The position numbers and the translations under genes are program-made. The notes under the pieces were generated by a model that searched no databases, had not been told where the DNA came from, and saw nothing but the letters and a program-made list of their open reading frames with translations. Of a DNA stretch of 64,000 bases, positions 2,911 to 6,275 are shown piece by piece (the first letter of the stretch is position 1; each line of letters starts with the position of its first letter). Location of the stretch: assembly GCF_024919275.1 (NCBI RefSeq), contig NZ_JANWGH010000002.1, positions 1-64,000 on the forward strand, read 5' to 3'. This DNA is from Algoriphagus limi. Lineage in GTDB: Bacteria; Bacteroidota; Bacteroidia; Cytophagales; Cyclobacteriaceae.

Positions 2911-2925
2911 AGTGATAAAAGAAAA

Positions 2926-2981
2926 TGGTTATCGATTATTTATAGATAGCGAAAAACCCCTCACCTGATAACCGATAACCA
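2926..2981. repeat. Intergenic inverted repeat (GGTTATCG type)
   Basis: Arms at 2926-2939 and 2968-2981 are complementary at 13 of 14 positions, the exception being a G.T pair, around a 28-nt loop. It sits between the M42 peptidase gene and the binding-protein gene, both on the minus strand. A short tandem of the motif ATAACC occurs in the right arm. There is no U tract, so it is not an obvious terminator. Confidence 0.5.
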
Positions 2982-2989
2982 AAACACTA

Positions 2990-4057
2990 TTAACTGATAT
3001 ATCTGAAGTCAAATTCAGGATCAAATTCCATCAAAAACTCATACATCAACTGAATGACTTGTTCTATATCTTCCTTGCTCGCCGTTTCAACCGTGGTATG
3101 CATATATTTAAGTGGAAGAGAAATCAAGGCAGATGGAACACCTTCATTAGAGTATGCAAAGGCATCAGTATCCGTTCCCGTTACTCTTGATGCTGCAGAA
3201 CGCTGGAAAGGAATATCCTTTTTCTTGGCAGTTTCAATTATTTGATCCAAAAGCTTCTTATGGACAGAAGCTCCATAAGTCAATACAGGACCTTTTCCAG
3301 CCACTTGATCTCCACTGCTAATTTTATTATACATGGGGGAAGTCGTATCATGGCAAACATCCGTGATGATCGCAGCATGTGGCTTGATTCGGTGAGCGAT
3401 CATTTGAGCTCCTCTTAGTCCAATTTCCTCCTGAACCGCATTGACTATGTATAAACCAAATGGAAGCTCTTTACCTGATTCTTTGATTTTCCGAGCCACC
3501 TGAGCAATCATGTATCCCCCAATCCTGTTATCCAAAGCTCTCCCTGAATAGAATTTATCATTTAGCTCAATCAACTCATCTCGGAATGTGATCACACAGC
3601 CCACGTGAATTCCCATATCCTCCACCTCTTTCTTAGACCGGGCTCCAACATCAATGAAGATATTGTCCAAAGTTGGAGAATCCTCTTTCCCCTCTTTTCT
3701 GACGTGGATCGCAGGCCATCCAAACACACCCGGAACGATCCCCTTATCGGTATGAATATTCACCCGCATAGATGGTGCAATCATATGATCAGAACCACCA
3801 TTTCTTCTTACATAGATATAGCCGTCGTCTTTGATATAGTTGACAAACCAGCTAATCTCATCTGCATGTGCTTCAATAACAAATTTGTACTTGGAGTCTG
3901 GATTAATCACACCGACTGCCGTTCCATAATTGTCGGTAAAATAAGTATCAACATACGGTTTGATATAATCCAACCATATTTGCTGACCTGAAGCCTCAAA
4001 ACCTGTAGGCGAAGCATTATTGAGGTATTTGTATAGAAATTGTTTTTGTGGATCCAT
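2990..4057 (-). CDS. M42 family metallopeptidase (glutamyl/deblocking aminopeptidase type)
   Basis: A 355-residue cytosolic, di-metal aminopeptidase of family M42 (FrvX/PepA-like, forming tetrahedral 12-mers in characterised members). The complete active site is visible. Metal ligands are His64 (EAHADE), Asp176 (RALDNRIGG), Glu211 (VQEEIGLRG), Asp233 (ITDVCHD) and His320 (KYMHTTVE). The catalytic pair is Asp66 and Glu210. Length matches the family (about 340-360). It probably trims short peptides after proteasome-like or Lon/Clp degradation. The left inverted repeat framing the neighbouring S23 gene begins 11 bp upstream of this start codon, so that insertion may have altered its promoter. 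Confidence 0.92.
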   Translation of the reverse strand: MDPQKQFLYKYLNNASPTGFEASGQQIWLDYIKPYVDTYFTDNYGTAVGVINPDSKYKFVIEAHADEISWFVNYIKDDGYIYVRRNGGSDHMIAPSMRVNIHTDKGIVPGVFGWPAIHVRKEGKEDSPTLDNIFIDVGARSKKEVEDMGIHVGCVITFRDELIELNDKFYSGRALDNRIGGYMIAQVARKIKESGKELPFGLYIVNAVQEEIGLRGAQMIAHRIKPHAAIITDVCHDTTSPMYNKISSGDQVAGKGPVLTYGASVHKKLLDQIIETAKKKDIPFQRSAASRVTGTDTDAFAYSNEGVPSALISLPLKYMHTTVETASKEDIEQVIQLMYEFLMEFDPEFDFRYIS

Positions 4058-4068
4058 AGTTTTGTTTT

Positions 4069-4098
4069 AGTCAATGGTCAATAGACCATAGTCCATAG
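4069..4098. repeat. Left 30-bp terminal inverted repeat of the S23-gene cassette
   Basis: This 30-bp stretch is the reverse complement of 4481-4510 at 25 of 30 positions; the inner 19 bases match at 18. It contains internal palindromic pieces (TGGTC...GACCA). It sits between the M42 peptidase start and the four-helix-bundle gene stop. Confidence 0.65.
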
Positions 4099-4103
4099 AG
4101 TTT

Positions 4104-4457
4104 TTATTTTAAACGTTGTTTTAATGTCTGTATCATTTTAACTAATTCCTCACTTTTTGAATATGCTTCTTGAAATTGATCATCAGATAAATAGTTTCTT
4201 CTTTTTGCAATAAATAAAGCACACACCACTTCTACGACTGACCGAATTGCATAACCCAAGAACCTTGCGAATTCAGGGTTAGATTGACTTGTACTTCCTT
4301 CTGCAATATTTAATGCTATTGAATCTGCGGCTCTTTTGATTTGAGAGGAAAGATTGAATTTTTCCTCCTGAGGAAATGCTGAGGAAATTTGGAAAACTAG
4401 GTCATTCAAGTCCATTGCTTTCTGCCAAACTTGAAGATTTTCGAATTTAAAAGCCAT
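4104..4457 (-). CDS. Four helix bundle protein (S23 / 23S rRNA intervening-sequence family)
   Basis: A 117-residue, mostly helical protein of TIGR02436. Landmarks are the opening FENLQVWQKAMDL, the QIKRAADSIALNIAEGS motif near residues 38-55 and FARFLGYAIRSVVEV. Homologues were first seen inside intervening sequences of 23S rRNA genes and are common free-standing genes in Bacteroidota; they form pentamers and their role is unknown. Here the gene is bracketed by 30-bp imperfect inverted repeats (4069-4098 and 4481-4510), one of which runs into the stop codon of the carboxylase gene upstream. That suggests a small mobile cassette, though it encodes no transposase. Confidence 0.88.
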   Translation of the reverse strand: MAFKFENLQVWQKAMDLNDLVFQISSAFPQEEKFNLSSQIKRAADSIALNIAEGSTSQSNPEFARFLGYAIRSVVEVVCALFIAKRRNYLSDDQFQEAYSKSEELVKMIQTLKQRLK

Positions 4458-4480
4458 CTATAAATTTAGGCAATATCCAG

Positions 4481-4510
4481 CTATGGACCATGGTCTATTC
4501 GCCATGGTCT
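4481..4510. repeat. Right 30-bp terminal inverted repeat of the S23-gene cassette
   Basis: Partner of 4069-4098. It also carries an 11-bp direct repeat, CCATGGTCTAT, at 4488-4498 and 4502-4512. It overlaps the TAG stop (4511-4509) of the carboxylase beta-subunit gene, so the repeat supplies part of that gene's 3' end. Confidence 0.65.
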
Positions 4511-6092
4511 ATAAAGGAATATTCCCATGCTTTTTCCTAGGTAGCTTATCCACCTTGTTCTCCAGCATTTTAAAGGCTTTGATCAATTTAATTCGGGTTT
4601 CGGAAGGCTCTATTACCTCATCGATAAAACCTCTGTGTGCTGCTCGATATGGATTGGCGAATTTAGCGGTGTACTCATCAACCTTTTCCTGAAGTTTTGC
4701 TTCTGGGTCGGCGGCGGCGGAAATCTCTTTTCGGAAGATGATTTCAGAAGCTCCTTTTGCCCCCATCACCGCAATCTCTGCGGTTGGCCAAGCGAAGTTC
4801 ATATCAGCGCCGATATGCTTTGAGTTCATCACGTCATAAGCTCCTCCGTAGGCTTTTCGGGTAATTACCGTGATTCTAGGAACGGTCGCTTCGGAAAATG
4901 CATATAACAATTTCGCTCCATTGGTGATAATCCCATTCCATTCTTGATCTGTACCAGGCAAAAATCCAGGAACATCTACTAATACCAATAAAGGCACATT
5001 GAAACTATCGCAAAAACGAACGAATCGTGCGGCTTTGATGGAAGCATGATTATCCAATACACCCGCCATAGATTGAGGCTGATTTCCAACTATTCCAATA
5101 CTTCTCCCTGCAATTCGAGCAAAACCAACCACGATATTATCCGCATAGTTTTCATGAACTTCCATGAACGAATCAGCATCCACTATTCCACGAACTACGT
5201 CCCGAATATCATAGGGGTGATTTGGATTTTCTGGAACTATGGAATCCAACTCATTTCGGCTTTCATCAGCCTTCAATTCATAAGGATAAACTGGAGCAAT
5301 TTCTTCGCAATTCTGAGGGATATAACTCAACAAATCTTTTATATGACGAATACACTCTACTTCATTTCTACAAGCAAAATGCGTCACTCCGGATTTGGTA
5401 CTATGCGCAGAAGCCCCTCCCAACTCTTCGGCAGTAACAGTTTCCTGAGTAACTGTTTTCACCACATTAGGCCCTGTCACAAACATATAGGAGGTGTTTT
5501 CTACCATTAAGATAAAGTCTGTAATGGCAGGAGAATAAACTGCCCCTCCGGCACAAGGTCCCATAATAGCAGAAATCTGAGGAACGACTCCCGATGCAAG
5601 GGTATTTCGGTAAAAAATATCCGCATAACCACCCAATGAGTTAACTCCCTCTTGAATTCGGGCACCACCTGAATCATTCAATCCAATCACTGGAGCGCCG
5701 TTTTTCATGGCCATATCCATGATTTTGCAGATTTTCTCTGCATGGGTTTCAGAAAGCGACCCTCCAAAAACCGTGAAATCCTGAGAATAAACATAAACCA
5801 ACCTTCCGTTGATCTCACCATAGCCGGTAACTACACCATCACCCAAATAATGCTCCTTATCCAAACCAAAATCTTTGGCGCGGTGCATCACAAAGCGGTC
5901 TATTTCCTGAAAACTTCCCTCATCCAGCAACAGCTCGATTCGCTCCCGAGCCGTCAATTTTCCTTTTTTATGCTGAGAAGCTATCCTTCCTTCTCCTCCA
6001 CCGAGCATTGCCTCTGCATTTTTTCTTCGCAGTAGCTCGATTTTCTCTTCGTTCGTAGATCCGGTATAAATGGGTTTATTCTGGTTTTCCAT
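4509..6092 (-). CDS. Acyl-CoA carboxylase carboxyltransferase (beta) subunit, propionyl-CoA carboxylase-like
   Basis: A 527-residue biotin-dependent carboxyltransferase with the N- and C-terminal crotonase-like lobes. Visible motifs are [40 protein letters not shown] and [12 protein letters not shown] (N lobe oxyanion hole), and [20 protein letters not shown]-like [11 protein letters not shown] and [12 protein letters not shown] (C lobe). It transfers CO2 from carboxybiotin to an acyl-CoA, most likely propionyl-CoA. The biotin carboxylase and biotin carrier subunits are not in the window. I chose the ATG at 6092 (MENQNK); an in-frame TTG eight codons upstream lies within a likely -7 element, TATATTTG (6121-6114). 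The stop codon overlaps an inverted repeat. Confidence 0.9.
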
Positions 6093-6275
6093 AAAATTTG
6101 GTTTTGCGAAAGCCAAATATAACAGGCTTTGGGAGGAGGAAAAAAATTCAAAGGGATGGCTGGCTGCAATTGGTGCTGGAAAAGACTTTGAAAAATTAAA
6201 GGGGAATATTTAAGAGGCAAGAACTCTGGATTTTACAAGAACTTTCTATATTCGCCCATCCAAAATTTTGGCAGT

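Follow-up and report, generated by a model that had tools for sequence, protein, structure and literature searches.

An S23 gene between inverted heptad arrays in an Algoriphagus limi spacer as one copy of a widespread Bacteroidota element

The S23 gene near the start of the Algoriphagus limi DNA analysed here (a stretch of 64,000 nucleotides, referred to as the window) lies between two inverted arrays of degenerate 7-base units. Comparison of sequences across genomes establishes this feature as one copy of an element that appears to be widespread in Bacteroidota, namely an S23 gene placed between co-directional genes and bounded by inverted heptad arrays. The same comparison shows the unit to be present, absent or replaced as a whole at sites with otherwise unchanged flanking genes, and both arms to carry a single spelling, specific to the locus or clade, of a common unit, approximately AG[AT][AC]N[TC][AT]. 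Our main reading, to which we assign a probability of about one half, is that the unit is a non-ribosomal, heptad-ended variant of the S23-coding intervening sequence (IVS) element, with the S23 protein as the probable reader of its own heptads. The S23 gene would be transcribed and translated together with the neighbouring genes, and its product, a relative of pentameric four-helix bundles, would read the heptads of its own unit and hold the two ends together, either on RNA or on DNA. Holding the ends would maintain the unit and, on rare occasions, might let it move or be removed as a whole. In its working the unit would resemble the IVS elements of 23S rRNA genes that encode S23, but it lies in spacers between protein genes and has different ends. 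The features of the window that enter the argument are given one per line.

4104..4457, minus strand: S23 (four-helix-bundle, PF05635) gene of 117 aa, from the ORF and the Pfam match
4481..4514, minus strand: 5' arm in the sense of the gene, AG[AT]-type 7-base units, overlapping the carboxylase stop, from the inverted repeat
4065..4098, minus strand: 3' arm in the sense of the gene, complementary CT-type units, ending 7 nt before the M42 start
4509..6116, minus strand: upstream host gene, carboxyl transferase, from the ORF (PF01039 in 4512-6086; the listed TTG start is uncertain)
2990..4057, minus strand: downstream host gene, M42 peptidase, from the ORF and PF05343
33617..33731, minus strand: S23-less heptad inverted-repeat cassette in the leuC-leuD spacer, between two aconitase-family genes
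2911..2989, minus strand: hairpin lacking S23, its arms heptad-like, in the spacer that separates the M42 gene from a periplasmic-binding-protein gene (btuF)

The names leuC, leuD and btuF are labels taken from the translations, for which the family search confirms the aconitase and periplasmic-binding families only; sucB, lpd, fadBA-like, metH, metF, gmk and nadD are labels from reading the translations without a family search.

A preliminary description of the window had reported inverted repeats enclosing exactly one S23 gene, and this is what we find. Of the 30 positions of 4069-4098, 25 are complementary to 4481-4510, with 18 complementary positions out of 19 in the inner part; when 1500 pairs of equal geometry were drawn at random from the window, the best 30-mer match was 20 and none reached 25. 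A repeat search lengthens the arms to 4065-4098 and 4481-4514 (34 nt, 82%). The single ORF between them matches PF05635 (23S_rRNA_IVP) with an E value of 3.6e-36 and 124 bits, against a curated cut-off of 33.8, and its match to the bAvd profile lies below the bAvd cut-off. Among solved structures, the S23 sequence matches 2gsc (E 1e-16) and 2rld (3e-6), with five chains each. The right repeat had also been said to reach into the carboxylase stop codon and the left to end close to the M42 start, and both statements are accurate: the stop TAG occupies 4509-4511, within the right arm, and the M42 start at 4057 is 11 nt from the left repeat as cut at 4069 and 7 nt from the extended arm. Each arm is built as an array of degenerate 7-base units. 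Two stretches of the window are more strongly 7-periodic than any in 20 simulated windows, namely the left arm and a stretch in the leuC-leuD spacer, and in the window's other 27 spacers the matches at lag 7 (0.29) are at the same level as those at neighbouring lags. The unit is outside any 23S rRNA gene, its neighbours being the carboxyl transferase and M42 genes. At Rfam gathering scores, no rRNA was found at the six S23 loci of the host genome (L001-L006), and no known RNA family was found at 15 loci except a tRNA in L006.

The six S23 matches of the host genome are distributed over three contigs. By eye, the flanks of all six are repeat-rich, each with a sequence of its own, and two are alike in style; five exceed the inverted-repeat threshold explained below (scores 22, 18, 19, 15 and 21), and the sixth, L004, falls below it with a score of 12. 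Spellings related to the window arm are found at four further places in this genome that have no listed S23 gene. At L005 (G000:C1:1394075-1394392) the S23 gene is surrounded, as judged by eye, by longer repeats of another style and not by plain heptads. At L003 (G000:C1:458763-459077) the S23 gene is upstream of a gene that reads as nadD. A Flavobacterium columnare table, in an excerpt of PMC5524665, places a four helix bundle protein between guanylate kinase and nicotinic acid mononucleotide adenylyltransferase, and this gmk/four-helix-bundle/nadD arrangement and L003 may be a single site seen in two distant genera.

S23 genes occur in 56 of the 59 Algoriphagus genomes, with up to 13 matches each; in one genome of this set, G058, a protein at L057 is 100% identical to a protein of A. 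aquaeductus. The genus set, drawn from the 30 best-scoring loci (many of them sucB-lpd) and 40 stretches hand-picked from the same match list, comprised 89 S23 genes, of which 5 without full clean flanks were dropped, leaving 84. The upstream flank of each gene was scored locally against the reverse complement of its downstream flank, with the 99th percentile of dinucleotide shuffles as the threshold. The average arm score was 16.7, compared with 8.3 at control positions 500 nt further out, 8.6 in shuffles and 9.7 with the flanks of other loci. The threshold was exceeded at 63 of 84 loci, at none of the 84 control positions and in 96 of 997 comparisons with flanks swapped between loci; direct, non-inverted similarity of the flanks exceeded it at 21 of 84. 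These inverted repeats are locus-specific, in that the spelling varies by locus and is common to both arms of one locus. Of the 148 Bacteroidota genomes sampled, 116 have S23-type genes, with as many as 16 matches in one genome, and among the 28 best-scoring loci of that listing, 27 of them usable, 17 of 27 loci outside the genus were above the threshold (control 0/27; swapped 4/206). In a third set of 80 named loci, found with fadBA-like and sucB-lpd proteins and overlapping the genus set by a few Algoriphagus loci, 63 of 104 S23 genes passed (control 0/75; swapped 103/818). About a third of loci are below the arm threshold. The proposal that the feature is a discrete unit with matching ends is supported, and most other S23 genes examined have flanks of this type; as to the idea that flanks are conserved around other S23 genes, the architecture is conserved but the letters are not.

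Some loci depart from the common pattern. The period of the arms at L140, L144, L155, L157 and L159 appears by eye to be 8 and not 7. The few deltaproteobacterial loci have no heptads by eye, and some (L206, L230, L231 and L239) have inverted similarity. Two differing S23 genes are present in each 4-4.5 kb stretch at L073, L082, L083, L091 and L101, most with arms of their own; the two at L082 are oppositely oriented and neither has strong arms.

Self-matches of the genus flanks at lags 7, 14 and 21 were 0.38, 0.37 and 0.35 upstream and 0.48, 0.43 and 0.39 downstream, and 0.24-0.28 at control positions (0.24-0.25 at lag 7). Strong heptads were present at 72 of 84 S23 loci versus 9 of 83 other co-directional spacers (Fisher p 4e-24), in a comparison that is uneven, with two 120-nt flanks for each S23 locus and a median of 108 nt for the control spacers; p-values here overstate the evidence because the loci are related, many being one site in related species. 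Several of the nine heptad-bearing control spacers are heptad hairpins themselves. This difference argues against the view that heptad hairpins are an S23-independent trait of Bacteroidota spacers, either slippage products or terminators, in which S23 merely settles. Such a view is consistent with the S23-less heptad cassettes at leuC-leuD, sucB-lpd and M42-btuF and with the heptamer repeats known in Bacteroidetes and Cyanobacteria from a report that, in its available part, does not mention S23 (PMC4679880). We consider it unlikely, and three results presented below also count against it: the polarity of the arms relative to the S23 gene, the weak tendency of arm spelling to follow S23 similarity across sites, and the occurrence of gene plus arms at two Mucilaginibacter sites.

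The S23-less cassettes are themselves variable. No S23 was detected in the 30 leuC-leuD loci read. Three or more alternative repeat cassettes occur among these loci, seven loci have other spacers and three have spacers of just 12 nt; at least 14 changes are needed for this spacer. The host genome and the closely related G046 have identical LeuD and different leuC-leuD cassettes. At M42-btuF, 28 spacers were read of the 30 relatives' loci, and most have a hairpin, often unrelated in sequence; several of these hairpins carry heptad arms and a T-run. Variable as they are, and with these arms and T-runs, they therefore look like terminators replaced wholesale.

The AG core of the heptad unit was found in 138 of 169 arms with strong heptads, and constancy within an array is lowest at position 5 (67%); the units were rotated to put AG first, so that the constancy of the first two positions is partly by construction. 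Of 121 strong upstream arms, 88 were AG-only, 5 CT-only, 22 both and 6 neither, whereas 130 strong downstream arms comprised 86 CT-only, 6 AG-only, 25 both and 13 neither. The ends are therefore polarised relative to the S23 gene. The gene itself is oriented with its surroundings: both neighbours are on the S23 strand at 78 of 84 genus loci, and at the 80 loci where the neighbours agree, S23 has the same direction in 78.

The matching of the two arms was examined by swapping arms between loci of the same site. In the genus, the comparison of own with swapped arms gave p values of 0.065 (18 loci, sucB-lpd), 0.0013 (15 loci), 0.07 (9) and 0.72 (5), and 0.0005 in a group of 9 that mixes two S23 clades. 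Across all sets (215 loci minus 47 without two detectable co-directional neighbours, that is, 168), the values were 0.0002 (33 loci), 0.0002 (35) and 0.27 (19, sucB-lpd), and in smaller groups 0.011 (9), 0.06 (9) and 0.036 (5). In the groups of 33 and 35 loci, own arms pair better than swapped ones, and at several sites a change of spelling in one arm goes with a matching change in the other. At sucB-lpd, which has one spelling throughout, own and swapped arms pair about equally well and the variable positions show no clear co-variation.

One explanation of paired arms is a messenger version of the rRNA IVS, in which the arms pair into a stem within the operon transcript and cleavage of that stem by RNase III frees the S23 message from between the host cistrons. 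The anatomy is that of the Coxiella IVS as given in the excerpted part of PMC4990558, the co-direction with both neighbours at 78 of 84 loci agrees with a shared transcript, and the predicted fold of the window unit as RNA pairs the arms (z -2.58, with 1 of 100 shuffles equally stable). However, the mismatches between arms lean slightly away from G-U (141 G-U-compatible versus 179 of A-C type; binomial p 0.038), and no G-U excess was found relative to swapped arms (p 0.13; 139 of 209 loci passing). Many arms also have, by eye, a mismatch in nearly every heptad, and the variable positions at sucB-lpd are as described above. Because there is neither a G-U excess nor, at sucB-lpd, clear co-variation, motif recognition or copying between the arms is favoured over selection for an RNA helix, and we regard the messenger version as doubtful. 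The suggestion of a structured RNA whose terminal stems join the ends has accordingly fared in two ways: the predicted fold does join them, but the mismatches in the arms show no excess of G-U.

Recognition of the heptads by S23, as in our main reading, is consistent with a relationship between arms and protein. Between sites, arm similarity rises weakly with S23 similarity (Spearman 0.08-0.23, mean 0.18; Mantel p 0.0025-0.12, median 0.016, in 12 draws, each taking a single locus from each of 32 sites, with 149 of the 168 loci used). In Mucilaginibacter, one S23 lineage is found at two sites whose neighbouring genes differ. Four comparisons were made between them. Three show S23 genes that are 74-78% identical over the matched part and best arm matches of 91-97%, with no further similarity at E 1e-5 beyond gene and arms; in the remaining one (L233), gene identity is 71% and about 130 nt separate the left arm from the gene. 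The arm spelling in Mucilaginibacter is a common one, and the likeness therefore need not mean joint movement. Copying of the arms from the target site was also considered, and rejected. The sucB-lpd heptads are similar to the beginning of lpd, and those of the fadBA-like site to the last part of the gene upstream, but the similarity measured in 27-28 site groups (6.18) was not clearly beyond the permutation value of 5.84 (sd 0.24), and three further comparisons were likewise not clearly beyond permutation.

To follow the unit at fixed sites, we read the spacers of related genomes. The M42 gene is present in 58 of 59 Algoriphagus genomes, and the closest 30 loci were read at the carboxylase-M42 site, with spacer lengths counted from the stop codon. 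The S23 lineage of the window occurs at 5 of these 30 (64-100% identity, one truncated), and at 3 a different S23 lineage (35-46% identity) is present, with arms that are different too. The remaining 22 have no S23, so that relatives do have empty carboxylase-M42 sites, as the preliminary description had proposed to look for; the spacer is 19-45 nt long in 12 of them and 80-240 nt long in 10. By direct reading, one of the longer S23-less spacers (L119) keeps the S23 tail and one arm, and in G029, which is close to the host genome, a 37-nt spacer reads like the outer parts of both arms. The gene lpd is present in 55 of 59 genomes, and of 30 sucB-lpd loci read, 9 have S23, 20 do not and 1 is at a contig end. 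The S23-less spacers here are 35-150 nt long, many with heptads or a terminator-like hairpin. A minimum of 8 changes in S23 presence is required on the lpd tree, which has 29 tips, 9 of them with S23; for four spacer classes defined by simple motif rules, 13 changes are required. In the pairs compared at this site, the flanking coding DNA follows the species and not the spacer class; in G047 (S23) and G035 (no S23), for example, the 30-nt bins adjoining the spacer are 87-100% identical.

Horizontal exchange of S23 at sucB-lpd was hinted at by pair identities, and we rejected it on the AU test, in which the S23 tree and host descent were not significantly in conflict (p 0.14). As the S23 tree does not significantly contradict that of the host at this site, an old resident that was repeatedly lost or replaced is the likeliest history, and for the same reason movement between sites looks rare. 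These results also bear on the possibility of a transposable element of the classical type, non-autonomous and ending in terminal inverted repeats, which a transposase or reverse transcriptase (RT) would move in trans and in which S23 would be cargo or a helper like Avd. Inverted ends, spacers without S23 and two distant S23 clades in one spacer would fit such an element, as would the resemblance of PF05635 to Avd (PMC10053308, as excerpted), with a bAvd match below the cut-off. The ends differ between copies, however, S23 at sucB-lpd is not significantly off the host tree, and of the two partners searched for, RT and Y1 transposase, neither proved obligatory. Matches to RT were found in 20 of 59 Algoriphagus genomes and in none of the S23-rich G024, G044, G046 and G052; Y1 transposase was found in 52 of 59 and in neither of the S23-bearing G014 and G055. 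The single RT match of the host genome is at C1:112479, whereas the window is on C2, and none lies beside the S23 gene of the window. RT and Y1 transposase were thus both rejected as obligatory partners on the 59 genomes, in which S23-rich genomes lack one or the other; the mobilisation in trans that had been proposed is not supported, and we consider the classical element very unlikely.

In addition, the coding sequence shows constraint. The dN/dS of S23 was 0.055-0.26 in five site groups (NG86, 3-31 pairs per group, with synonymous changes near saturation), which indicates that the S23 protein is under purifying selection. To our knowledge, S23-type genes have no established function. Several observations go against our main reading: the net charge of S23 proteins is near zero (median +1 in 80 proteins), heptad hairpins also occur without S23, and about a third of the loci, L004 of the host genome among them, are below the arm threshold. 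The near-equal pairing of own and swapped arms at sucB-lpd, the slight lean of arm mismatches away from G-U and the AU test at sucB-lpd also count against it. We tentatively put forward a wider proposal, which we regard as possible but not probable, that S23 genes are the coding core of undescribed operon-spacer elements whose polarised heptad ends co-evolve with the protein. S23 would read the heptads in a clade-specific spelling, S23-less hairpins would be miniature or abandoned forms, and spacers such as sucB-lpd would switch between alleles with and without S23, their flanks unchanged.

The polarised repeat grammar would give S23 genes a concrete candidate ligand and a boundary, and spacers between core metabolic genes switch among alternative cassettes in close relatives. 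In the open-access literature (with few preprints), titles and abstract openings among the matches listed did not link S23 to heptad or inverted repeats in operon spacers. The recurrence of the arrangement, in other repeat spellings, around most of the S23 relatives examined in Bacteroidota suggests that S23 units with heptad ends are a common type of operon-spacer element that has yet to be given a name. MITEs and REP elements are short inverted repeats in spacers, with small forms that have no gene, and in both respects they resemble the units described here. Unlike a MITE or TIR family, the six S23 loci of the host genome differ in arm sequence, and unlike MITEs and REP elements, S23 units are in sense with their neighbours and no partner transposase was identified (Y1 was searched). 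TAACTGA is an intergenic heptamer direct repeat that also occurs in some Bacteroidetes, and the terms S23 and four helix are absent from the available part of the report (PMC4679880). These repeats share with S23 arms the 7-base unit, the location in spacers and the inclusion of some Bacteroidetes, but they are exact direct heptamers, whereas the units of S23 arms are degenerate and flank a gene as two inverted arrays. The Avd protein of diversity-generating retroelements is a four-helix-bundle protein related to PF05635, according to the excerpted text of PMC10053308; in contrast to those elements, there is no reverse transcriptase beside the window S23, the only match in the genome being on another contig.

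The closest comparison is with the 23S rRNA IVS. In Coxiella burnetii, as described in the part of PMC4990558 drawn on here, the IVS is 428 nt long, carries an S23 ORF, has a 28-bp terminal stem and is associated with RNase III, and its ORF is reported to be in reductive evolution. Both kinds of unit hold one S23 ORF within terminal inverted repeats, with a total length of about 430-450 nt, and the repeats of the window would be able to form a closing stem. The Bacteroidota units differ in being located in spacers between protein genes, several per genome, with polarised, degenerate heptad ends, and in an S23 gene under purifying selection, unlike the Coxiella ORF. Heptad-ended units may link the S23 genes of Bacteroidota to the old puzzle of S23 in rRNA intervening sequences.
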